64,000 bases of DNA, from positions 847,972 through 911,971 of the forward strand of contig CAMXCT020000313.1 of assembly GCA_947184155.2 (NCBI GenBank), given 5' to 3'. Under the pieces are notes generated by a model. It searched no databases and was not told the DNA's origin. It saw nothing but the letters and a program-made list of their open reading frames with translations. Below, piece by piece: positions 46,046-59,875 of this stretch; positions within the stretch are counted from its first letter, which is position 1; each line of letters begins with the position of its first letter. Source of the DNA: Cladocopium goreaui (taxonomy: Eukaryota > Sar > Dinophyceae > Suessiales > Symbiodiniaceae). Position numbers and translations under genes: made by a program.

Positions 46046-47560
46046 TCCCCAGGTAGCAGCCCCCATTCCCTTCTATTTGCAAGCTATTGGCAGCATTTCT
46101 GAGGTCCAGCTTCGTATTTGCTAGGTCTTTGCAGCATTTCTGACTACCAGCCTCGCATTTACTAGGCACATGCTACCTTTTAGGCGACCTGCGTAGCACA
46201 CATACTCCTTCAAAGTACCTACGTGCTACCTATACTCATATATACATGTGCTATGCATCTACTGTATCTACTTCCTATTTACTACCTGTGTACTCTGACA
46301 ACACTACCTGTGTTTAACATATACCGTACCTACCATACATGTCAATGATGCCATGCATACCATACCTATCATATCTATCATACATACCATACATACCATA
46401 CATATGAAATGTAATTACCACACCTACCATACATACAATAGCAAACATACATGCCATACATACCATACCTACCTTACATAGGAAATATTCCATACCCATC
46501 ATAGTAACCATACATACCATACAGACCATACATACTGTCATATCAAACATACCATACCCAACAGACTTACATACCATACCTACCATCCATACAATACCAA
46601 CCACTCATGCCATACATACCATACCTACCATACATACCAAACATACCATACTTTCCAAACATGCCATACCAGACCGACCATACACACCATACATACCCAA
46701 CATACCATACCACACCCCCACCACACCACAGGGGGGGGAGGGGGACAGTGCCACACCCCCACCACACCACAGGGGGGGAGGGGGACAGTGCTGGGTCCCC
46801 AGGTAGCACCCCCCTTCCCTTCTATTTGCAAGCTATTGGCAGCATTTCTGAGGTCCAGCTTCGTATTTGCTAGGTCTTTTCAGCATTTCTGACTACCAGC
46901 CTCGCGTTTACTAGGCACATGCTACCTTTTAGGCGACCTGCGTAGCACACATACTCCTTCAAAGTACCTACGTGCTACCTATACTCATATTTACATGTGC
47001 TATGTATCTACTGTATCTACTTCCTATTTACTACCTGTGTACTCTGACAACACTACCTGTGTTTAACATATACCGTACCTACCATACATGTCAATGATGC
47101 CATGCATGCCATACCTATCATATCTATCATACATACCATACATACCATACATATGAAATGTAATTACCACACCTACCATAGATACAATTGCAAACATACA
47201 TGCCATACATACCATATCTACCTTACATAGGAAATATTCCATACCCATCATAGTAACCGTACATACCATACAGACCATACATACTGTCATATCAAACATA
47301 CCATACCCAACAGACTTACATACCATACCTACCATCCATACAATACCAACCACTCATGCCATGCATACCATACCTACCATACATACCAAACATACCATAC
47401 CTTCCAAACATGCCATACCAGACCGACCATACACACCATACATACCCAACATACCATACCACACCCCCACCACACCACAGGGGGGGGAGGGGGACAGTAC
47501 CACACCCCCACCACGCCACAGGGGGGGAGGGGGATGGGACCCATCCCATCCCATGGAGGG
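46046..47560. repeat. ~750-bp tandem duplication rich in ACCAT units
   Basis: Two copies (about 46046-46797 and 46798-47545) each carry TTCTATTTGCAAGCTATTGG, then GTACCTACGTGCTACC, a long run of CATACC/ACCAT units, and a CCCCCACCACACCACAGG-GGGGGGAGGGGG block. The copies differ by few bases. Frames of 79-99 residues on both strands are repeat translations (minus: MYGMYGRYG). Confidence 0.9.
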
Positions 47561-47603
47561 GGGAGGGGGGTGGTGGCAGGGCCTGGTGCATATATATATA
47601 TAT

Positions 47604-47902
47604 AAACACTCACAACACCTTATTTTCACAAGCTGTGCAGACCAATTTTGTCTAATTAAAGAGTTTGAAATAGGGGATAAATAGATTGTCAGAAGAAGGA
47701 ACCCTCACCTTCTTATGGGTCACAAATGAAATATCTCCCGCCAGACCGGAAGATAATTCATCTACCCGTGTCTTCCGGTTTTCTCGCCACACCAGAGAAA
47801 GTTACCGGACCCAAGACACAGACAATCTTTCGGAAAAAAACGGAAAACGAAATAACAAAGGTAAAAACCCCCCTCCCTTTGTTACAATTTTGGCGCTTTG
47901 CG
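47604..47902 (-). repeat. Split direct repeat B2 (outer end)
   Basis: A 299-bp copy matching 47987-48285 at every base I compared, at an offset of 383. It begins AAACACTCACAACACC on the plus strand and ends GGCGCTTTGCG. The 80-residue frames inside both copies are the same peptide and are probably not genes. Confidence 0.9.
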
Positions 47903-47920
47903 CCTTGGGAGGGGGGGTGG

Positions 47921-47987
47921 GCCCTTAAGCCCAAGCTGCGTTGTGAATGCCGGTGTTTTCGTGTTTACCCCCGAACACGTAGCAACA
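47921..47987 (-). repeat. Split direct repeat A2 (inner)
   Basis: A 67-bp copy, identical to 55339-55405, starting GCCCTTAAGCCCAAGC on the plus strand and ending CACGTAGCAACA. It sits between B1 and B2, joined to B2 by an 18-bp G-rich linker (47903-47920). Confidence 0.9.
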
Positions 47988-48285
47988 AACACTCACAACA
48001 CCTTATTTTCACAAGCTGTGCAGACCAATTTTGTCTAATTAAAGAGTTTGAAATAGGGGATAAATAGATTGTCAGAAGAAGGAACCCTCACCTTCTTATG
48101 GGTCACAAATGAAATATCTCCCGCCAGACCGGAAGATAATTCATCTACCCGTGTCTTCCGGTTTTCTCGCCACACCAGAGAAAGTTACCGGACCCAAGAC
48201 ACAGACAATCTTTCGGAAAAAAACGGAAAACGAAATAACAAAGGTAAAAACCCCCCTCCCTTTGTTACAATTTTGGCGCTTTGCG
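47987..48285 (-). repeat. Split direct repeat B1 (inner)
   Basis: The second 299-bp copy, directly behind the recombinase gene. It overlaps the last 21 nt of that ORF. Confidence 0.9.
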
Positions 48286-49356
48286 AGAGCTTCCACGTCC
48301 CCCTGTCCTTCTCTCTTTGAGGGATTGCTCAAGCGAGGGGTTAAATTTCCAGCCAGTGTAAATTCGGTGAAACGGCAAAAGTAGCGGTTTCGGAATCTGG
48401 ATATCGGAAAGCATGGCTAATCCGGAGTTAATGTAGATGCGGGCAGTCTTGACTGCAGTCCATCTGCCGGCTACTACAACTTTGTCAAGAGACCCACACT
48501 TGACAAAAAGGTGCGTTGCACCACCTCTTCGCAAAGAATATGGCCTGAAATCCCATTTGGTCAATTTCAGCTTGGAAACGCATTCAGAAAAAAGTGCACG
48601 CCAGGCATGAGGCTTTAAAGTAAGGAACGTGTGAGAAGGAACTTTGTTTTTCCAGGCCCATAGATGTGCCAGGACATGTTGTTCGGTGAGAGTTATACTC
48701 TCGGCCGCTCCTTGCCGTTTGCCTGACTTAGTTAAACCAAGGTTGATGACCGCTGGTTTAAATTGGGATTCCATATGTATTTGCCAAGCTTGAATAGACA
48801 GGAGTTCTCCTGTTCGGAGAAGACCATAAAAACCCACCAACAGACTAAGACCAAAGGTGTAGTGCTCCTGAGTTACTGCCCAACCTACCATAGCTTGCAA
48901 AACTGCCTCACTCAATGGGGGAGCCCGTGAAGGGATCTCATGCGTGGTCCATGTACGCATCAATCTCCAAGAGCCCGGGAGGTGATTCTTAAGCTTGGGC
49001 ATATAGTCTTGCAACGCAGCCATGAAATTACTTGCCATTGCCCTGCCTTCTCCTTGTGCCCACAAATATTCCAAATAATCGGAAACCAATGCATCCATGT
49101 CATCCTTTTTTCGTGGTAATTCCAGCTCCTCCTGTTTCAAAAAATCAAAGAAGCTTTGAAGACCTTTGGAATATCGTTCCTTTGTGGTAGTTTGCACTGT
49201 AAGACTTTTTAAGGTGCCCATGTTCTTGCGGATCTTGCTTCTTTCTTCTTTGCTAGCGGCTCCTGAAAGGGAAACTACTTTCTTACCCATCGCTTTTTGA
49301 CCCTCCATCGGGAGGGTCGGTCGGCTGGGTTTTCTTTCGTATCCACGTAAGCCCAT
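48265..49356 (-). CDS. Tyrosine recombinase (phage-integrase fold) of the retroelement
   Basis: The 363-residue protein would integrate the element's circular DNA copy by strand cleavage through a tyrosine. An N-terminal core-binding-like region (about 45-145, YSKGLQSFFDFLKQEE) precedes the catalytic domain. Motifs: first Arg in YGLLRTGE (R181), Lys in LTKSGK (K210), second Arg in PYSLRRGG (R276), Trp in AGRWTA (W299) and the nucleophile in ARIYIN (Y308). The usual His three residues before the second Arg is Tyr (Y273), a deviation worth noting. The ATG at 49356 lies 82 nt inside the end of pol, in the -1 frame. An A5 run in pol sense (49294-49298) is a possible slip site, but reinitiation is equally possible. 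The tail (TGGRGSSRKAPKL) ends inside repeat B1. Confidence 0.85.
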   Translation of the reverse strand: MGLRGYERKPSRPTLPMEGQKAMGKKVVSLSGAASKEERSKIRKNMGTLKSLTVQTTTKERYSKGLQSFFDFLKQEELELPRKKDDMDALVSDYLEYLWAQGEGRAMASNFMAALQDYMPKLKNHLPGSWRLMRTWTTHEIPSRAPPLSEAVLQAMVGWAVTQEHYTFGLSLLVGFYGLLRTGELLSIQAWQIHMESQFKPAVINLGLTKSGKRQGAAESITLTEQHVLAHLWAWKNKVPSHTFLTLKPHAWRALFSECVSKLKLTKWDFRPYSLRRGGATHLFVKCGSLDKVVVAGRWTAVKTARIYINSGLAMLSDIQIPKPLLLPFHRIYTGWKFNPSLEQSLKERRTGGRGSSRKAPKL

Positions 49357-52300
49357 ACGGGCTGGAGTCCACTAGCTAAAAGATAGGCGCTAATCCGCAT
49401 CATCGTTCTCCTCATTTTCCGGGATGATGAACGACCTCTGGTAAGTGCATGTAAAACCACTAAGCTATCCACCAAATGGATACATCTAAGGTTGACCTGT
49501 CGCCTTTGAAATACTCGCCACTTGACTGTTGTAAGAACAGCTCTAGCTTCCAAAACGTTGATATGCTCCACATCCCCGCCCCATTGCCATCCCGCAACGG
49601 TAGCCCATCTCCAAAGTCTAGCTGGGATCCCTGTACGTAAACGGTGGTACTTGACTGGAATCTCTGTGCTGCTTTGTAGTAGAAGATCTTCACCTTTAAG
49701 TGAAACTAGACCAGAAAGTTTTGCCACTAGGCGAGGGGAAGAGCAGAGGGTTTTGGTGCTTTGGGTCAAAGGCGGGCGTAAAAGTAGGCTTTGCAGATCA
49801 ACTTGATGTCCCGGGGTGAGCTGTTGTACAAGTAGGGCCAAAGAAAAAGGTGGAATAATTCCCAAAGGTTTGAGAAGTTGTCCTAGGAGCCATGCTACCA
49901 CCCCAACAGACCAACTGTTTCCTACCAAACTCAACCGACAATCATTGTGGTGTGTTGTACCATGTTCACTTTTCTTCATGCATTGCTTCGTATAGTTAGG
50001 AGGGAAACCAAGTATCACCTCCCTTTCTCGAACACTAGGAGGTCGCAACCTCCCTTCATAGTTCACCAAGCAGTTGCACGACTTGTATTGGTACGGAGGG
50101 AAACGGTGCTCATCTTGCTTCCATCGCAACAGTTCGGATTCATTGCAGTCTTTCAAACCTGCTGGTCTCCGAAGTGGCTTTGGACTTGGCCTCGATGTAG
50201 TGAAAGTTGGGAGGGCTTTCTCTCCCATTCGCTTCCAACCTGGTTCCAGGAAAGCTTTCTCATCAACCTGGGCTTTCAGTTGAACTTCGCCCACTATGGG
50301 CAACTGACCATTGGACCCCAAGTAGATCTCCACACCTTCTTCTTCTTGGAGTTCCCAAGATACCCAGTAGAGCCGTGGTCTGTGAGCCAGACTAATGCCA
50401 TCCGCATCAATGAACCAGGGTTGGGAGTCAAATTCGGCATTCATTGCCTCACAGTCTCCCCTATCCATCGAAGCGACATTCTCGGTGAGGCTGTGTACTT
50501 GGGCCCAAGGAAAATGTGCTTTACACAACTTCACCAACCGAGGAACGTGCTTGAAGAGTTTGCTGCGCTGATCTCGCAAGGCCCCTTTGCGGTCAGCATT
50601 AAGCCCTGACACCCCTTGACAGGGTGGGCCGGAACCAACTAGCACCAGCCCAACTGTAGAGTGCTTGAGGGCCCAGCCAGCCACCACTTCGTCCGTGATC
50701 TGCTCCACATCGTCGTAGGCTTCACTTTCCGGAAAGTGCGCTTCAACCACACGCCGTGCTTCTGCTGACCTTTCCACAGATATGTGCCCAGCAACTGGGG
50801 CATGGATCACATCGAGGGCTACTCGTAAGGCGCTGATTCCGTCAAATAACCCAATGCTTAACACCTGGGTCAATTCCACCTCTTCCGGGATCTCACCTCG
50901 TACATGGCTTAAACTAGCAGCTAAACCATATGGTGTGACCCCTTTACTTCGGCAAATTCCACCACCTGTAGTTGAAGCATCACTAGCTGTCACCACCTCG
51001 TCAAAACCTGAACGCAAGTTGATGAAACTCAACGGGCACAGCCCTATGAACCTGATGAGCTCAATCAGCACCTCCTTCCGCAGGGGTATTCTAGCATGAG
51101 GGGATTTTGGGGTCTCTTCTACAATAGTTCTCCAGATTTGGTTCAAAGATGACAACAAAGGTCTCCGGAACATAGCCACGTAGACGAAACCACCCCCTAC
51201 CACTTGCAACTCCCTCTGGGAGGCGCTTCCTCGCCCAACAAGCTCGAGTGCCAGCTTGATGTACTTGGCCACTTTGCTAGGTTTGGCAGTTATGGTGCCC
51301 TGATCACCATCCACCCAAGCTCCTTGAACTTCTGCTTGAAGAGATTGCTCCACTGACTTCTTAGGATGCCTTGGGAGTTTACTCATTTCGTAATATTCCC
51401 TTATCTGATCCACCAAGTCTGACGTGCTTCCAGACACCAGCAGTGCAGTGGCTCGATCTAACTTCTGGAGCTGGTCAAAGTTGTCAAGGTAGACACGGAA
51501 AAGGTTGGAAAAAGTGCTGAATATCCGGTCCCGTCTAATTTCTTGAACAGTCTTCCCAAGACCCGTTAATGAACCCAAAGCCTTCACAATCACACCACGA
51601 TGTATGTGCTGTGCCACTCCTACACTGTTGAGATATCCCATAGGCAAAACGGTTCCAGCAAGATACCATTTCTTGCCTTCCCCGCCTACAGGCCTCAGTG
51701 ATAGAGGGGCTTCCCGACCAAATCCCATAAATCTACACCAGGCCTGTGGGACTCGAAATAAATAGAAGAAGCACCGCAAGTCCTCAGAGGATGTGACCAG
51801 GACATCATGGTCATGGATATAGAGCGCACTCATTTGGGTGATAGATGGAAGGGTGCCTACCTCTGCTGGCAAACTCCGGCTGATGGAGTTCCAGGGCTTA
51901 AGGTTCATGATCAAACGACTCACTGCGATCTGATTCTTAATCTCATCCTTCCCTACCGAAAAGAGGCCATTAAGTAGTGGTTGAGATCCGATATGATGAA
52001 GTTCTTCTTGACAAACCACCTTACATAGACCACGTTCAACAAGTCCTCGTGCCAAAGGTTCCCAATCCCCATCACAAACCATAACAGAAGGACACTTCAT
52101 AGGTTGTTGAAAATCGGCAGGAACAATGGTCTCATCAATGTTGTTGATAAAGTGTAGAACGCCCCCAGAGCAAAAATCCCTAATATCCAAAGAACCAGCT
52201 TCAGGTGGTAAGGACGCCTCCACACTGGGCCAACTTATGGGCTGAGCTAATCTCACCTCTTCACCAGCATAGTCCAAACCCTTCTGGGTAAAAAAGTTGG

Positions 52301-53084
52301 CAAAATCGATTTCAGGAAGAACTTCATTCAAAATGTGGGAACCCTGCAACACGCTGTCAAGCCTTTTAAGCACCACTTGGGCGGCTGGTGACGCTGCATC
52401 ACCCGGGCCTACATCGCCGCAGCCATGAAGGCTATTGAGGCACACTACAAGCGCCTGGAGAAAAGGATGCCTGCTGTCACCCAGTAAGCCTTGCCTTTGG
52501 ACTGGAAGTGGGAATAAATCGAACTTCCTAGCCGTGGACCCTGGCCTGCACATTTGTGAAGGATTTTCAAGGAGATCAAGGACATGGCTTACCAGGTCAC
52601 CAAGCTCTCCGACTGTGCAACCTGTGCTGAGGCCCGCTAGACGTGTCCTAACGATGCCACTGATTCTCTCACCGCTTTTTTGGGAGGTTCGGCCATCAGG
52701 CAGCTGCCTCCCATCTTCTTTCTTTGCATCAAATTCCTCTTCATTTTGGGAGTTCTTAGATCCACTCCCTTCTTCAAAGCATGCACTTGACTCGCCTTCC
52801 GGCTGGGAGTCCCTCCAGCGCCACCCAGAGTGACTCCCTTGGCTCTTCATGGCTTCTCCTTGAGCTTCGTCAAGAAGACGATCCACGTCGGCCATAGTGA
52901 AACCTTCTATGATATGCTCCTCAGCTTCTTCAGTCACATTTTCTGCAGCCTCTCCTTTTGTCAACCTCTTGTCACTCCTCTCAGCCTCTTCTCTGGGCAA
53001 GCTTTGGGCATTTTTTCTCTTTGCTCGGTGCCTAGGGAGCCCGGGTGAAGGCTCCTTCATCATTTCTCGTTTTTCTTCTGCCAT
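49275..53084 (-). CDS. Pol: reverse transcriptase, RNase H, nested C5-cytosine DNA methyltransferase
   Basis: The protein has 1269 residues from ATG 53084. Residues 1-340 are an acidic leader. Reverse transcriptase spans about 345-690: GLFSVGKDE and RLIMNLKPWN, motif A with D435 (SSEDLRCFFYLF), LPMGYLNS (480-487), and motif C YLDN (532-535), with Asn replacing the second Asp. RNase H starts with D702 (TASDASTTGGG) and resumes only at E1179 (HINVLEARAV), D1206 (HLVDSLVV) and D1255 (ENPADRPSR). Between them sits a whole C5-methyltransferase: motif I GLFDGIS (745-751), II E771, IV PPCQG with catalytic C822, VI ENV (868-870), VIII RPRLYW (902-907), IX around R1019, X GNSW (1055-1058). It would copy element RNA and could methylate cytosines in DNA. 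Gag overlaps its start by 25 nt; the recombinase overlaps its end. Confidence 0.9.
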   Translation of the reverse strand: MAEEKREMMKEPSPGLPRHRAKRKNAQSLPREEAERSDKRLTKGEAAENVTEEAEEHIIEGFTMADVDRLLDEAQGEAMKSQGSHSGWRWRDSQPEGESSACFEEGSGSKNSQNEEEFDAKKEDGRQLPDGRTSQKSGERISGIVRTRLAGLSTGCTVGELGDLVSHVLDLLENPSQMCRPGSTARKFDLFPLPVQRQGLLGDSRHPFLQALVVCLNSLHGCGDVGPGDAASPAAQVVLKRLDSVLQGSHILNEVLPEIDFANFFTQKGLDYAGEEVRLAQPISWPSVEASLPPEAGSLDIRDFCSGGVLHFINNIDETIVPADFQQPMKCPSVMVCDGDWEPLARGLVERGLCKVVCQEELHHIGSQPLLNGLFSVGKDEIKNQIAVSRLIMNLKPWNSISRSLPAEVGTLPSITQMSALYIHDHDVLVTSSEDLRCFFYLFRVPQAWCRFMGFGREAPLSLRPVGGEGKKWYLAGTVLPMGYLNSVGVAQHIHRGVIVKALGSLTGLGKTVQEIRRDRIFSTFSNLFRVYLDNFDQLQKLDRATALLVSGSTSDLVDQIREYYEMSKLPRHPKKSVEQSLQAEVQGAWVDGDQGTITAKPSKVAKYIKLALELVGRGSASQRELQVVGGGFVYVAMFRRPLLSSLNQIWRTIVEETPKSPHARIPLRKEVLIELIRFIGLCPLSFINLRSGFDEVVTASDASTTGGGICRSKGVTPYGLAASLSHVRGEIPEEVELTQVLSIGLFDGISALRVALDVIHAPVAGHISVERSAEARRVVEAHFPESEAYDDVEQITDEVVAGWALKHSTVGLVLVGSGPPCQGVSGLNADRKGALRDQRSKLFKHVPRLVKLCKAHFPWAQVHSLTENVASMDRGDCEAMNAEFDSQPWFIDADGISLAHRPRLYWVSWELQEEEGVEIYLGSNGQLPIVGEVQLKAQVDEKAFLEPGWKRMGEKALPTFTTSRPSPKPLRRPAGLKDCNESELLRWKQDEHRFPPYQYKSCNCLVNYEGRLRPPSVREREVILGFPPNYTKQCMKKSEHGTTHHNDCRLSLVGNSWSVGVVAWLLGQLLKPLGIIPPFSLALLVQQLTPGHQVDLQSLLLRPPLTQSTKTLCSSPRLVAKLSGLVSLKGEDLLLQSSTEIPVKYHRLRTGIPARLWRWATVAGWQWGGDVEHINVLEARAVLTTVKWRVFQRRQVNLRCIHLVDSLVVLHALTRGRSSSRKMRRTMMRISAYLLASGLQPVWAYVDTKENPADRPSRWRVKKRWVRK

Positions 53085-54470
53085 TGGCCTCGGTTCTCCT
53101 CTCTGCCTCCTTGACCTTTTCCTTTGCCACTTTCACCTGGAGATCCCTTGTTGGCACCTTTCGAGTCTTTGCCCTTGCGATTCTTGCCTCCTCCTGAACT
53201 GTCAGTTCCTTTGCCCCCTGGTCCTCTGCTCATCAGCGACTTCAAGCGCTCTTCTTCTTTGGCTCTTCGCGCAGCTCCAAGACGTTCTTGTTCTTCGGTC
53301 ATTCCTCCTTCGTCGACTTTGATGAGTTCGAATTGTCGACAGAGCGTCCAATGGGCGCCCTTTCCCAGAGCTTCAAGAGATTTTAATCTCTGGTTCAGCA
53401 AGTCCATGCACGAAGCCACATAGCCTTGAGCCAGCAAATCCAGCCCTTGACAAATTGTCAGGCTCTCTTGCTGTAAGCTGGCTGACATGCCTTGCATGAC
53501 CACTTGCCGCCCATATTGGGTATACAATGGGGGCAAAGCAGCTTTGTTGATGTCCCACACTGATGGAGCGGGCAGCCAAGGCGCCTGGGCACCTCTTCCA
53601 GATGGACCTTAACCTCTTCTCTTCTTCGAAAAGGCCTTCTTCCCCATAGTCACTGGAGTCGCTGGAAGTGGAACTGGTAGAGCTTGATCTCCTCGAAGAA
53701 GAGCTGGCCTTCTCCTTTTTCTTACTTCTTTTCTTGCCCTTCTTCCCCAAACGGCGAGCCCTCTTCAAAATCTTTGCCCGCCGACTGGGGTCTGGATCCA
53801 TTCCAGTGAACTTGAAGATGTCCTCTAGCGGCCTCTGCCCAACTTCAAGCTGCTCATCCTCCTTTTTGGGAGACTTCGTCACTCTCCCCTCTTCTCTTTC
53901 TTTCTTACGCTTTCGTTTCTTTTCTTTGGATTCTTTCTTCTTTTCAGCTTCCTTAGCTCATGCCTCCATTCGAGCCTGCTCTTTTCGAAGCTCTGCCATC
54001 TCGTCAACCTCTCCTCCATCATCCTTTTCTGGCTTCAAGTTCGTGAGCCATGGCACTCTTGAGAGATCCGTCTCTTCGAAGCTCTGGGCATGAAGGAGAA
54101 CTTCATCGCTGAGTAGTCCCGTGCATCCTTCATCGCACGCATGGACATTGACGAGTTTGTCCTTCTTCCCACTCAGGATTCTCAAGAGTTCTTCATTTTT
54201 TGTGCCACTCACCTTCAACTTCACGAAGACGTTCTCGCCTTCCATGTTGAGACCTTTGAAGTGCCCCGCTATGGGAGCAGGCTGTCCATAGTACCTGGCT
54301 TCTTGAAGCACCACGGCTCCCAACTTCGAGAGGCCCTTCACGTCCACCTCAGAGAACTTCTTGACCTTGCTCTCAACCTCCTCAGCGGCTCCTTGACGGG
54401 CAGGTCTTCGCATCACTCCTGGCGCTACTGCTGGCCTCCTCAGAACTCCTCTGCCAACCTTGGGAGCCAT
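53060..54470 (-). pseudogene. Gag-like ORF broken by one stop and one frameshift
   Basis: It starts at ATG 54470 (MAPKVGRGVLRRPAVAPG) and reads 170 codons to a TGA at 53958. The same frame then continues at once with a Lys/Glu-rich stretch (AKEAEKKKESKEKK) and SPKKEDEQLEVGQRPLED to about 53575. There the reading must shift to another frame, open from 53606, to continue as VWDINKAALPPLYTQYG and so to 53060. The TGA could come from CGA by CpG decay, as expected if the element is methylated (inference). Segments: Arg/Pro basic head, globular VFVKLKVSGTKNEEL part, Lys/Ser-rich linker, helical part (LLAQGYVASCMDLLNQRL), Gly/Lys-rich basic tail. Capsid or RNA-binding roles are inferred from position only. 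Confidence 0.65.
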
Positions 54471-54481
54471 TGCTCCCCTTG

Positions 54482-55333
54482 CTAGCGACGCTGCCTTCTG
54501 TTGAAAAGCTCCTGTTTGGCCCTCTTTACTTGTCCCTTGTTCTCGGAGGACGTCCACCTAGGATGCGTGGACACAGGCAATTCGCCGACCCAACCACGGC
54601 CTTGTCGAGCCGGCGGTGGGTAATTGGGTTCACGTGGTCCCCAGTAATCTGCTCCTCCTCGATGAGAAGGGGGAAAAGCCGGCTCTGGTGGCTTCTCAGG
54701 GTGTCGCTTTTTCTCTTTGCCTCCTTCCGACTTCTTTTCACGTGATGAGGTGCTCCTTCGCCGCTTTCGATCTCGATCCTTGCTTCTTTTCCTTTCGGGG
54801 GCAGCTCGAGGGCTGGGAGTCCTGTGTACTCCCCTTCTTTTGTCTTCGGTTCGAGGACTTCGCCTTCTTTCTCGGCTTCTGGACCTTCTTCGGGGTGATG
54901 AGGTAGTGACTTCTTTCTTCTCAGCTGCTTTTGGACTTTTGTGACTGTCTCCGGATCCTCGTCGATCTGGCTTGTCCCCGCTACTTCCTGGGGCTGTCAA
55001 TTGAGGAGGCGGTACTGGAGGTGGTACCTTAGTTGCCAGCTGCAAAGGTTGTGACGGCCCTTTGCTCGGCGGGTTGGCTTGGGAGACTGCTCTTGTCTCC
55101 CCTTTTGGACCCTGAGCTGGTGGCGCAACTCTGGTCTCGTTGAAAAGTCCAACCCCTGGGAACCTCCGGGCTACCTCGTCCCTGAGTTCCCCCTCCAGGT
55201 GCCTCAAGTGACTCCCCAGCACACTCACGTAAGCTGGGTAGTCTGGCAGCCCCGTACCAGTGCCGATCAGCTGGAAGATTCGGGGCAAGCTATAGCAAAC
55301 CGGGCAGTCACAGTGGGGTTTATGGTTCCACAT
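54482..55333 (-). CDS. ORF1, Arg/Ser-rich protein of the retroelement
   Basis: The 283-residue frame starts with ATG at 55333, only 6 bp inside repeat A1, and ends 12 nt before the gag ATG. The N-terminal part (1-75) is compact, with HCDCPVC (7-13) and LRHLEGELRDEVARRFPG. Residues from about 140 on form an RS-like region (SPRRRSRSRERRRSP, then KRSKDRDRKRRRS), followed by a Pro-rich tail. RS domains are known from splicing factors; here it may bind RNA or mimic splicing proteins (speculative). It may instead be the N-terminal part of gag, separated by a frame change. Confidence 0.6.
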   Translation of the reverse strand: MWNHKPHCDCPVCYSLPRIFQLIGTGTGLPDYPAYVSVLGSHLRHLEGELRDEVARRFPGVGLFNETRVAPPAQGPKGETRAVSQANPPSKGPSQPLQLATKVPPPVPPPQLTAPGSSGDKPDRRGSGDSHKSPKAAEKKEVTTSSPRRRSRSRERRRSPRTEDKRRGVHRTPSPRAAPERKRSKDRDRKRRRSTSSREKKSEGGKEKKRHPEKPPEPAFPPSHRGGADYWGPREPNYPPPARQGRGWVGELPVSTHPRWTSSENKGQVKRAKQELFNRRQRR

Positions 55334-55338
55334 ATAAT

Positions 55339-55405
55339 GCCCTTAAGCCCAAGCTGCGTTGTGAATGCCGGTGTTTTCGTGTTTACCCCCGAACACGTAG
55401 CAACA
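55339..55405 (-). repeat. Split direct repeat A1 (outer 5' end of the element)
   Basis: A 67-bp copy identical to A2 at 47921-47987. It marks the 5' end of the element on the minus strand. ORF1 begins almost at once, so the promoter must lie in or near this repeat, or transcription starts outside. Confidence 0.9.
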
Positions 55406-56085
55406 TACATATAAGTATCACGCATGTGAATCCACAAAGGCGTTTGTTTGATTAAGCCATTTGCCATTGCCATAGGTTTTTTGTTGCAACAAATCACTTA
55501 ATTACAATCATAGAAATCATAGAGTCATAGCTTGTTATACGGGTTTCACAAATCCAACTGCCTCCTGAGGCATTTGGATCCTGGGGCATGGGGCTTGGAC
55601 CACGTGACCATTCCACTAGAAAGTGCTTTTCCCCAGTTACAAGTCCGTTTTACAAACCCCATGCACCAGAGATATATCATATATTCACCATGCCTAGTTA
55701 CCTAGTTATACAAGTTAACACTGGGGCAGTACCCTAGGGCGCCCGCCTCAGTTGACTCCGAGCGAGAGATCTCCCAGAGTTTTAGAGGTGGAACTCGTGG
55801 TGGTCTCACAAACCCCCCTGGCGCAACGGCGCCAGAAATCGCCGAGGGGAAATGATCCACTGGTCATTGAACATGACCTACTTGACCAATGGGAAATTAG
55901 CAATATATTAGCAATTATATTACTATATTATATTAAATTAAATATATATATATATTGATCAACATGTTCCTCTGGCCATATTAATTAGCAATGGAACATG
56001 ACCTACTTGGTCACCTTTTTTTTTCGGTGGGACTTGTGGTTATGCTTGAGGTATGAAACAACAAGTCATTGCCTCTGTTTCATCA
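55406..56085. other. No gene recognised
   Basis: Flanking sequence of the retroelement: AT-rich with a TA run at 55918-55955 and two near copies of a short word (AACATGACCTACTTG at 55870 and 55995). Confidence 0.5.
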
Positions 56086-56089
56086 CCAT

Positions 56090-57560
56090 CTCATCGATGA
56101 TAAGTTTGGCTGGTCTTGCGAACCTTGCTTGGAAACCTGTTCCCAGGAACCTTGCCTGGAAACCCCTTGCTTGCGAACCTATTCTTGGAAACCTTTTTTG
56201 CAACCTTTTCTTGGAAACCTGTTCCTGGTAACCTTGCTTGCGAACCTGTTCCTGGAAAATTTGATTGAAAATCTTGTTCCTGGGGTGGCTGAAGACCCCA
56301 AGCTTTCGCTGTTGGGGAAAAACGTTCCCAAGCAAGTTCCCAGCAAAAGGTTCCCAAGCAAGGTTAAGTTCTTAGGAACCGCTTGCAAGTACGGTTCCCA
56401 AAAACGGTTCCCAAGCAAGGTCCCAGGAACCGTTTCCAAGCAAGGTTCCAAGAGGGAACAAGGCTCACAGGAACAGGTTCTCAAGCAAGCGTTCCCAGGA
56501 AGAGCTTGTTCCAAAGCAAAATTTCCAGGAGCAACTGGGAACCCTTGCTTGCGAACCTTTTTGTGGGAACGTTGCTTGAGAACCTCTTCCTAGCAACCTT
56601 GCTTGAGAAGCTGTTCCTGGGAACCTTGGGAACCTTTTGTTGGAAACATTGCCCGGGAACTTTTTCCGAGAACCTTACTTGTGAACCTGTTCTTGGGAAA
56701 CTTGTTTGGGAACCTTGTATGGGCACCTGTTCCTGGGAACCTGTGGCTGGGAAACTTGCTTGGGAACCTCTTCCTGAAAACCTTGCTTGGGAACCAGCTT
56801 GCTGGGAACCTTGCTTGGACACCTCTTCCTGGAAACCTCTTCTGGAAACACTTGCTTGAAAACCTGTTCTGGGAACCTTGTTTTGCTTGGAAAAACATGT
56901 TCCTGGAAATCTTGCTTGGGGAAACTTGCTGGGAACCTTGCTTGGACACCTTTTCCTGGAAACCTCTTCCTGGAAACACTTGCTTGAAAACCTGTTCTGC
57001 GAACCTTGTTTTGCTTGGAAAAACATGTTCCTGGAAATCTTGCTTGGGAAACGGTTCCTGGAAACCTTGAAAACGGTTCCTGAAATCCGTGCTTGCAAAA
57101 CCTGTTCCTGGGAACCTCTTCCTGGGAGCCCTTGCTTGGGAACCTCTTCCTGGGAACCTTGCTTGGGAACCTCTTCTTGGGAACCCTTGCTTGGGAACCT
57201 CTTGCTGGGAACCCTTGCTTGGGAGTCTGTTCCTGGCAACCTTGCCTGGGAACCTTGCTTGGGAACCTGTTCCTGGGAACCTGTTCCTGGGAACCTCCTG
57301 GGAACCTTGCTTGGGAACCTCTTCCTGGGAACCTTGCTTGGGGGAACCTCTTGGGAACCTCTTAAAAACCTTGCTTGGGAACCTGTTCCTGGGAACCTTG
57401 CTTGGGAACCTGTTCCTGGGAACCTGTTCCTGGGAACCTGTTCCTGGGAACCTGGGAACCCTTGCTTGGGTTTCTCTTGGAAAAGGAGACCCCTTCTTGG
57501 GAACCTGGTTCCCAACCTTGCGCGGTGCGGATTTGGCTGCTCCGACCGGCTCTGGGACCT
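56090..57560. repeat. GGAACC/GGTTCC minisatellite, ~1.45 kb
   Basis: About 80 imperfect copies of AACCTTGCTTGGGAACC and CTGTTCCTGGGAACC units. The basic word GGTTCCCAGGAACC is self-complementary, and around 56320-56520 the unit orientation is reversed relative to the rest, so the array can form many hairpins. Frames of 174-372 residues run through it on both strands (Trp/Glu/Pro/Leu-rich plus, Phe/Pro/Ser/Lys-rich minus) and are not genes. Both ends carry a near-identical word, GGCTGAAGACCCCAAGCTT, GCTGTTGGGG (56284-56318 and 57569-57598). Confidence 0.9.
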
Positions 57561-57608
57561 TTACTATGGCTGAAGACCCCAAGCTTACGCTGTTGGGGGA
57601 ACATGGAT

Positions 57609-58054
57609 GGCAACGACAACGACGTGGATCAAACATAATCAGAATTTGTCTAGCAGCTGCCATCTGATCCCATGCGTCGCATATATTTTTGCATATACAT
57701 CTATGCATCTATACATTATATTGGGATCTGAACACAAAGTCTTGCAAACCACTTCCTAGCTATTTAAGTTTCTTCACTGTGTTTCAATCTGAACTTCACC
57801 ATTGCTGCTGATTTTTTCTTTTAAATCAATTTGGTTTGCAGGTGCTGCGGGCAACTGGGAAATTTCATTGACAACTCTGTCGCCTCAATGATTCCTACGC
57901 TCACATTCTATACTCCAGCCGCTGAAAATTAGATACTAAGAAAAGTTTCACCGACCACGGCCACAACATCATGTATACCATGTTCGGTGGCGCTCAGCTC
58001 ATCTGTACCAAAAAAAGGAGCCAGCACCCGAAAATGTGGAAAACACGCAGACGT
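57609..58054 (-). other. 3' flank of the light-harvesting gene, duplicated at 59207-59607
   Basis: It shares GGCAACGA-AACGACGTGG, ATCATAATCAGAATTTGTC-type words, CTGCCATCTGATCCCATGCG and AACTGGGAAATTTCATTGAC with the copy 1.55-1.6 kb to the right. It follows the stop codon of the gene and may be its 3' UTR plus intergenic spacer. The repetition marks an old tandem gene duplication. Confidence 0.75.
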
Positions 58055-59112
58055 CTACAGCCCGAACTGCTCAACGGCATCCTTTCCCGTGTACAGCTCC
58101 GCGGCAATGATGCCAATAGCCGCGAACATCGCGAAGCGGCCGTTGTTAATCTCACGCTCCTCAGTATGGTTGCCGTTAAACATGCTATGAATCCAGCTAG
58201 CCAGAAACCAAACAGAATCTGGGGCAGGATGCTAGAAGTGACTCTGCACTTGTTGTGAAATACAGTGAAGACCCCTGATATGCTACCCACCTTGAACTGG
58301 GGATGCGCTTTCTTTAAGGCATCTACCTTGATCTCTCACTGCAATTGAGTGTCTCTCATTTCCTGGTTGTACTGGTTCAGGCCAAGGGGGTCACCGAAGT
58401 TTCCTGGCTCCTTGTCATCACTCTCAGTCCACGCGCCCAACTCAAGGATGCCAGCCACAGCGAAAAGAGCCACAAAGCCATAGCTTCCTGGAGCTGTGAT
58501 GGAAGCAGCAAGGCCACTTGGAACAGACTCAAAGCCAGGGAACTTCACATAGTGTTGCACCACTGCACCAAGGGCTGCCATCATCGCAGCGCGGCCATGC
58601 TTGATTTCAGCAGCACGAAGGTTGCGGAATCCGGCCTCATCGCCCTTCTTGCAAAACCCTACCGGGTCAAAGAAGCCCAAAGGAGCCATAGCGCCAATCT
58701 GGGTAGCAGGGTCAAAGCTTGAACTTCCTCCACCCTTGCCTGCAACGGTTTCCTCTCCCTTTTTCAAGGAGCCAACACCAGCAGAGCCTGCAACAGCTGA
58801 GGTGGTTGCAGTCGCTCCCTTGGCTGCAGCAGCTGCTTTTGCAGCAGCAGCGGCAGCGGCAGCAGCAGACACGGGCTCAGCTCGTCGGGCCATGCGGCTG
58901 CGTCCAGCAGCCACGGCTCCGACGCCAACGAGGCCCATCAGCGGCAGTGCGCTGCCGAATCCCTGCGATGGGGCAGCTGAGGCACCACGCAAGTTGGCCA
59001 CGGCTTCAGTGCTCACAACAGGCCCGGAAGCACTTGGCACAAATGCCTGCGTGGCCACGTAACCACCGGCGACAAGGCCGGCAGCTGCCAAGATGGTGTT
59101 GCGAGGAGCCAT
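58055..59112 (-). CDS. Chlorophyll a/c-binding light-harvesting protein, plastid-targeted
   Basis: Exon 1 (59112-58354) encodes 253 residues and exon 2 (58159-58055) 34 more, joined in phase 0 to give 287. The protein would bind chlorophyll a/c and carotenoid in the thylakoid antenna. N-terminus: signal-peptide-like helix (1-22), AFVP motif (23-26), second hydrophobic segment (57-70) before RRAEP, the bipartite leader of peridinin plastids. A long Ala-rich linker (82-100) follows. LHC helix 1 is AAEIKHGRAAMMAALG (167-182), a middle helix lies at about 208-228, and helix 3 is EINNGRFAMFAAIGIIA, in exon 2. Without splicing the frame stops after five more residues and loses helix 3. The intron (58160-58353, 194 nt) reads GA...AG. 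A relic of a tandem copy lies upstream. Confidence 0.9.
58160..58353 (-). other. Intron of the light-harvesting gene with GA-AG ends
   Basis: Exon 1 ends ATGAGA and the intron begins GACACTCAAT; it ends ATACTGAG before GAGCGTGAG. The choice is forced by protein similarity (EMR joined to EREINNGRFAMF) and by exact phase. Shifts of a base or two using the shared GAG are possible; none gives a GT donor. Non-canonical donors are known for dinoflagellates. Confidence 0.65.
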
Positions 59113-59151
59113 TGCAACAAAAGTGATTCAAGGGCGTGGGGCGCAGGGCTG
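59113..59151 (-). promoter_or_regulatory. 5' UTR with possible trans-splice acceptor
   Basis: Above the ATG the minus strand has GTCACATTTTCAG| with the AG at 59150-59149, giving a 36-nt leader. Dinoflagellate mRNAs usually receive a 22-nt spliced leader at such a site. No promoter motif is visible. Confidence 0.45.
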
Positions 59152-59206
59152 AAAATGTGACAGATCTGCGTTAAAATACTGCGGCAATACAATACAAAAA
59201 ATGCAT

Positions 59207-59629
59207 GGCAACGAAAACGACGTGGATCAAACATAATCAGAATTTGTCTAGCACCTGCCATCTGATCCCATGCGTCGCATATATTTTTGCATATACATCT
59301 ATGCTTCTATCCATTATATCAGGATCTGAACATAAAGTCTTGCAGACCACTTCCTAGCTATTTAAGTTCCTTCACTGTGCTTCAAATCTGAACTTCAACA
59401 TTGCTGCTGATTTTTCTGCAACGTGTTCTTAAAGGAAATCAATTTGGTTTGCAGGTGCTGCAGGCAACTGGGAAATTTCATTGACAGCTCTGTCGCTTCA
59501 ATGATTCCTACGCTCACATTCTATGCTCCAGCCCCTGAAGTGGCTCTCAGCTCATCTGTACCGAAAAGAGGAGCCAGCACCCAAAAATTTGGAAAACACG
59601 CAGACGTCTACAGCCCGAACTGCTCAACG
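59207..59629 (-). pseudogene. Relic of a tandem light-harvesting gene copy (last codons and 3' flank)
   Basis: The minus strand keeps only VEQFGL and the TAG at 59608-59610, followed by the same 3' flank as the intact gene. Upstream of this point similarity stops abruptly (59630 on). The relic is thus a truncated tandem neighbour with its coding part lost by deletion. Confidence 0.7.
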
Positions 59630-59875
59630 GTAACACTAACACAATTGGTTTCCTGTCATCGCGTGGATCAATGTTTCATTCCACCCATAGCTCGAACGAT
59701 ACAATACGATCCCGTCGCTAGATTCTCCCATTCTTTGCCACCAGAATGCTTGAAAAACACATGAAAAACATCACCAAGAATCACCAACCCAAACATCAAA
59801 TTTTCAAGTCACTAGAGAAATTCTCGAAATTTGCGCTCTTGGGGATTGTTTGGCTTCGTTTTTGTTGAGGAAATG
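59630..59875. other. No gene recognised
   Basis: Unique sequence replacing the lost part of the tandem copy. Nothing supported. Confidence 0.4.

Follow-up and report, generated by a model that had tools for sequence, protein, structure and literature searches.

We analysed a stretch of 64,000 nucleotides from Cladocopium goreaui (the window) and found a DIRS/PAT/Ngaro-type (tyrosine-recombinase) retrotransposon in which a DNMT3-type C5-cytosine methyltransferase, together with a helical adaptor, sits between strands 2 and 3 of the RNase H of Pol. The piece of RNase H that lies N-terminal to the methyltransferase carries VTASDAS..GGG, and the C-terminal piece carries EHIN.LE, HLVDS and NPAD.PSR, all of which we take to be RNase H motifs of DIRS-type elements. 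The family to which the element belongs is already known; the nesting inside RNase H and the YLDN motif of the reverse transcriptase (RT) appear to be new, being undescribed as far as we searched.

Conservation of the split RNase H

An earlier note on this DNA had claimed that a complete methyltransferase lies between RNase H motif 1 and motifs 2-4. To this we can add the family, a set of 238 proteins, many of them fragments (the best 120 of 872 relatives, plus a further 118 found among the best 120 of 326). Of the 111 proteins with a readable residue at each of the five positions D702, E1179, D1206, D1255 and C822 of the methyltransferase, 109 are intact throughout, the deviating proteins being P0096 and P0102, and the claim holds. 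Taken singly, D702 is retained by 208 of 209 family proteins, E1179 by 118 of 118, D1206 by 115 of 115 and D1255 by 112 of 113. RT, methyltransferase and RNase H also diverge in a correlated way, with plain r values of 0.76, 0.65 and 0.70 for their distances over 98 rows.

The note had also pointed out about 477 residues between the first Asp and the Glu, where a few dozen are usual. We found the same spacing of 477 in the window Pol, compared with 32-33 in control Pols, a range obtained for 105 of the 120 controls, those with both motifs inside the script limit of 100 residues. The control proteins (the best 120 of 1129) show RT and RNase H Pfam domains in most rows and come from fish wherever an organism is named. 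No record name among them says DIRS, and we assume that they are DIRS-type from the probe and from recall. A second, uninterrupted RNase H, which by the note would speak against the nesting, was detected in Pol neither by Pfam nor by HHalign.

The first search for relatives was scored on a region that contains the methyltransferase, and it says nothing on how often the domain is missing. An RT-only search (275-875 aa, best 120 of 326) gave the 118 new proteins, and no close relative without the DNMT was among them. A motif script found no HIN.LE-type motif in these 118, so none has a readable uninterrupted RNase H. Where these proteins have the SDAS motif, tails that are long enough enter the methyltransferase, and a few enter frame-shifted sequence. 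A scan of viral contigs gave 38 pattern matches, with no relative among them.

Placement of the insert by profile alignment

We aligned the pieces to a template profile built from 65 non-redundant control RT-RNase H sequences, drawn from the 82 that have a readable upstream RT motif. The C-terminal part of RNase H (aa 1144-1269) aligned to template columns 441-535 with an HHalign score of 39.5 and a probability of ~70%, and none of 60 shuffles reached this score (mean 14.8, sd 2.6, maximum 22.3). From the hairpin (aa 690-735), aa 694-712 aligned to RNase H columns 414-432 with a score of 18.8 and an HHalign probability of 2%. This score was equalled by one of 60 shuffles and, in a larger run, by 8 of 500; 14 of the 500 fell within 4 columns of column 414, and score and place were matched together in 1 of 500. 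By itself, the match of the hairpin to RNase H appears weak. Hairpin and C-terminal part are successive on the template with eight columns between them, at the place expected for the beta2-beta3 turn. At the level of profiles, these alignments show that the two pieces match successive parts of a contiguous RNase H.

The border of the insert does not look sharp by HHalign, because the C-terminal part extended by the adaptor (aa 1085-1269) gave an alignment that starts at column 421 and covers some of the hairpin columns. The RT-only profile did no better than shuffles against the controls (33 of 60 reached its score), and the profile of RT plus hairpin had an HHalign probability of 0.7%, with a score reached by 2 of 60 shuffles. 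A full-length run matched the methyltransferase stretch to the control RT with an E value of 4e-4. We rejected this match as chance, since 47 of 60 shuffles reached its score, and for this reason all placements were judged by shuffles. A PDB search with the profile of the C-terminal part returned one match, to an unrelated fold (E 1.2).

Structure model and covariation

The AlphaFold2 model of aa 640-1269, built from 46 sequences, had a pLDDT of 86.4 and a pTM of 0.85. In the model, strands 60-64 (with D702) and 68-77 lie in blocks of pLDDT 88-95 and are followed by the methyltransferase, with a linker of low confidence near residues 91-100. The adaptor lies past the DNMT3 match and ahead of the RNase H match; its block values are 90-95 as far as model residue 480, then fall to 65-81. 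After it come strand 519-528, helix 536-554 (with E1179) and strand 560-566, then D1206; at the C-terminus, strand 602-607 precedes a helix beginning at D1255. The earlier note had asked for such a model, and the predicted order is beta1-beta2-[methyltransferase]-beta3-alphaA-beta4, as in RNase H. Model and alignment together give the window Pol the D-E-D-D acids and the beta1-beta2-beta3-alphaA-beta4 order of a retroelement RNase H. Folded alone without an alignment, the C-terminal part reached a pLDDT of 39 and had no usable fold.

Fold searches of the model were dominated by the methyltransferase. Methyltransferases filled the PDB list, so that the lack of a listed RNase H is no evidence against RNase H. 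They also headed the Foldseek list against viral models (BFVD), in which 5 of 50 listed rows were RNase H-named and two were pararetroviral polymerase or polyprotein (E 0.006-0.036), with the matching residues of the RNase H rows unspecified.

The covariation set consisted of 123 sequences and overlaps the sequences of the model, so model and covariation are not independent. Strands 68-77 and 519-528 are arranged symmetrically around a sum of 596, and sums 595 and 596, the beta2-beta3 register, rank 2nd and 5th of 519. The D702-D1206 offset of 504 ranks 7th of 505, with neighbouring offsets not raised. Stronger covariation than in 71-524, the best beta2-beta3 pair, is seen in two other pairs of the hairpin, 76-473 and 67-211. 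The signal is noisy, and covariation weakly backs the beta2-beta3 register.

Architecture of the element

The element has repeats in the order A-coding-B-A-B, that is, split direct repeats (Table 1). Among the 25 longest of 33 inverted repeat pairs, none lies at the element ends, where DIRS1-like elements in the strict sense have such repeats. Since the copies of A and of B are near-identical, the insertion seems to be recent. The gag-like ORFs are broken, and a defective copy, frameshifting and splicing are all possible causes. This copy may be dead, because its gag region is in pieces. An RS-rich stretch is present within the gag-like region. The recombinase ORF shows an apparent YSLR at the position where tyrosine recombinases usually have the motif HxxR.

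Table 1. Features of the retrotransposon in the window (aa, residues of Pol)
Feature	Position	Strand	Basis
Whole retrotransposon, A1-gag region-Pol-YR-B1-A2-B2, 7.8 kb	47604..55409	-	split direct repeats flank the ORFs
Repeat A1, element 5' end	55339..55409	-	71 nt, 99% identity to 47921-47991
Gag-like region, several overlapping ORFs in two frames	53060..55333	-	position and composition, no family match
Pol ORF, 1269 aa	49275..53084	-	ORF list and translation
Reverse transcriptase core, ~aa 370-690, motif A D435	51015..51977	-	RVT_1 in 16/42 members
RT motif C, YLDN for YxDD, aa 532-535	51480..51491	-	family alignment
RNase H part 1, aa 694-729, with strands beta1-beta2 and catalytic D702	50898..51005	-	model strands and HHalign
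DNMT3-type C5-cytosine methyltransferase, aa 733-1078; C822, E868, GNSW from 1055	49851..50888	-	sequence and structural matches
Helical adaptor, ~aa 1079-1143, conserved	49656..49850	-	model helices 443-450, 458-463, 478-485
RNase H part 2, beta3 to alphaE, aa 1144-1269, E1179/D1206/D1255	49278..49655	-	HHalign
Tyrosine recombinase ORF, 363 aa, overlapping the Pol end	48265..49356	-	PF00589 E 9.7e-4, below Pfam cut-off
Repeat B1	47987..48285	-	299 nt, 100% identity to 47604-47902
Repeat A2, sharing 5 nt with B1 where the two join	47921..47991	-	repeat comparison
Repeat B2, element 3' end	47604..47902	-	100% match to B1

The reverse transcriptase and its YLDN motif

The best RVT_1 match among the family members had an E value of 3.5e-6, and the window protein itself had no match. 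Motif A is strictly conserved, with D435 kept in 224 of 224 family proteins. In motif C, the window Pol has YLDN and lacks the YxDD active site of retroelement RTs. The first Asp is kept in 230 of 231 and N535 in all 231 of the family proteins with a letter there; the corresponding residues of 82 control Pols are DD in 81 and DN in one. We found no description of YLDN together with "reverse transcriptase" in the literature searched.

The motif occurs naturally where an RT mutant made in the laboratory has the same change. According to PMC2148107, replacing the second Asp in Ty1 (D211N) leaves a polymerase that works in vitro with a 223-fold lower kpol and abolishes transposition, and suppressor mutations that relieve this defect in part lie in RNase H.

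Relation to known elements

As the earlier note says, C5-methyltransferases are known from dinoflagellate retroelements. Symbiodinium retrotransposons carry hundreds of DNMTs (de Mendoza et al. 2018, PMC5890265, main text). One of these families, SymbioDIRS-Dnmt3, is described there with two structures that differ in Pol domain order and with a DNMT under purifying selection. The window element resembles SymbioDIRS-Dnmt3, as presented in that text, in having the DNMT3-type domain in the same, uninterrupted Pol ORF as the RT, a separate tyrosine recombinase ORF and A-coding-B-A-B repeats (PMC5890265). The window gave 0 matches to a spliced-leader relic. Relatives with Skav names, presumably S. 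kawagutii gene models, reached 59-65% identity in the searched region among the best 120 of 872; these names point to a probable dinoflagellate host of the Symbiodinium group. The element most likely belongs with the SymbioDIRS-Dnmt3 elements already published.

A DNMT inside RNase H is not stated in the text of PMC5890265, figures and supplement aside, and the words nested, interrupt and split are absent from its main text; a figure may show the order RT-DNMT-RNase H. DNMT-bearing retrotransposons are mentioned without nesting in the sections covered of PMC6338049 and PMC12344493, and have no mention in the passages covered of PMC9998398.

Other elements share part of this inventory, as described in the portions covered of PMC3266345 and PMC3783388. 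Some DIRS1-like elements combine RT, RNase H, a Dam-type N6-adenine methyltransferase and a tyrosine recombinase, as the window element combines its enzymes; however, their domains stand in series (RT-RH-MT) and the methyltransferase acts on adenine, and DIRS1 has inverted terminal repeats. Ngaro and PAT are similar to the window element in their split direct repeats and tyrosine recombinase (PMC3266345, PMC3783388). The A-coding-B-A-B order is the one described for Ngaro, which differs in being without a methyltransferase (PMC3783388, PMC3266345).

Cas9 and IscB are proteins unrelated to the window Pol, and they carry a nuclease as insert where Pol has a methyltransferase. In both, HNH is positioned inside RuvC. 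Like the window Pol, they combine a second catalytic domain (HNH) with an interrupted enzyme of RNase H fold, RuvC, in which motifs I-III are scattered along the chain (for IscB, PMC9640706, in the passages covered).

Proposed mechanism and alternatives

We consider it probable that this is a SymbioDIRS-Dnmt3-like element whose Pol has a DNMT3-type CpG methyltransferase inserted in the beta2-beta3 turn of RNase H. The chain would return after the methyltransferase and bring D702 together with E1179, D1206 and D1255, and these acids would make up a single, active RNase H. The RT would copy the RNA and RNase H would strip it. The methyltransferase on the same polypeptide would methylate CpG sites of the freshly made double-stranded DNA prior to its integration by the recombinase, and the new copy would resemble the CG-methylated host DNA. 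A coupling of methylation in space to RNA removal, as the note suggested, is plausible. In RNase HI, however, the beta2-beta3 turn occupies a sheet edge remote from the catalytic centre, which would allow the two active sites to lie apart. Being nested, the methyltransferase could not be released by a single protein cut unless RNase H were cut too, and the enzymes should therefore stay together. The idea of self-methylation, in which cDNA is methylated on synthesis, has already been published (PMC5890265, main text).

The split RNase H could instead be a scaffold only, whose fold presents the methyltransferase while a host enzyme removes the RNA. An insert of roughly 450 residues might slow or stop catalysis, and Pfam recognises an RNase H domain in 0 of 42 family members. 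Such a scaffold would have no need of the four acids, yet they are kept in nearly every protein, and D702 is retained down to ~40% RT identity. We regard this explanation as decidedly unlikely. Another reading concerns the SDAS..GGG hairpin, which might belong to the methyltransferase, comparable to what precedes motif I in plant DRM enzymes, and leave an RNase H without its first strand. The weak match of the hairpin to RNase H by itself would fit, and the profile of RT plus hairpin places the segment on the plant DRM methyltransferase 4onq from residue 193 (E 1.9e-7 for the whole match). Against it, structural matches to DNMT3 begin at model residue 89-98, beyond strands 60-77, and GNSW, which we take to be motif-X-like, is already reached at aa 1055. 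In the control profile, the hairpin also falls on the beginning of RNase H, and the beta2-beta3 covariation speaks for its place in RNase H. This assignment of the hairpin is very improbable.

The target of the methyltransferase is a separate matter. It may be something other than the element's own cDNA, such as RNA or host DNA near the insertion, or the enzyme may act as a brake on transposition. RNA methylation (for a LINE family) and a brake are discussed as options in the text of PMC5890265, which also reports that elements without a DNMT transpose in these genomes. But the methyltransferase is DNMT3-like, and isolated SymbioDIRS-Dnmt3 domains carried out de novo CG methylation in yeast (PMC5890265, main text). 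A target of this other kind is possible, though somewhat unlikely.

The nested methyltransferase and the YLDN RT might further be co-adapted parts of one timing device, an idea that we put forward as unlikely. By analogy with Ty1, the polymerase would be slowed by the Asn that replaces the second catalytic Asp. A slow RT would need a slowed RNase H, as the template would otherwise be destroyed too early. The beta2-beta3 insert would slow RNase H and put CpG methylation on DNA that is turning double-stranded. If true, this would be a natural coupling of three enzymes, with polymerisation, RNA removal and epigenetic marking mutually tuned.

For the insertion in the beta2-beta3 turn, the consequences are more general. 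A methyltransferase built into an essential domain would tie RNA removal and CpG methylation to one polypeptide, and its long conservation would be partly explained. The question why some retrotransposons carry DNA methyltransferases would become testable with one purified protein.

Surroundings of the element

On one side of the element, two 300-nt blocks that are 98% identical and 749 nt apart lie at 46060-47568, adjoining CATACC-type units that are arrayed at a spacing of 9 nt. On the other side, a minisatellite at 56110-57452 (units of ~13-27 nt) yields long ORFs on both strands, which are probably artefacts. Repeats of 31-188 nt with 94-97% identity and a spacing of ~1.55-1.61 kb, located at 57600-59630, surround a chlorophyll a/b-binding ORF (58336-59112), and this arrangement resembles a tandemly duplicated light-harvesting gene.
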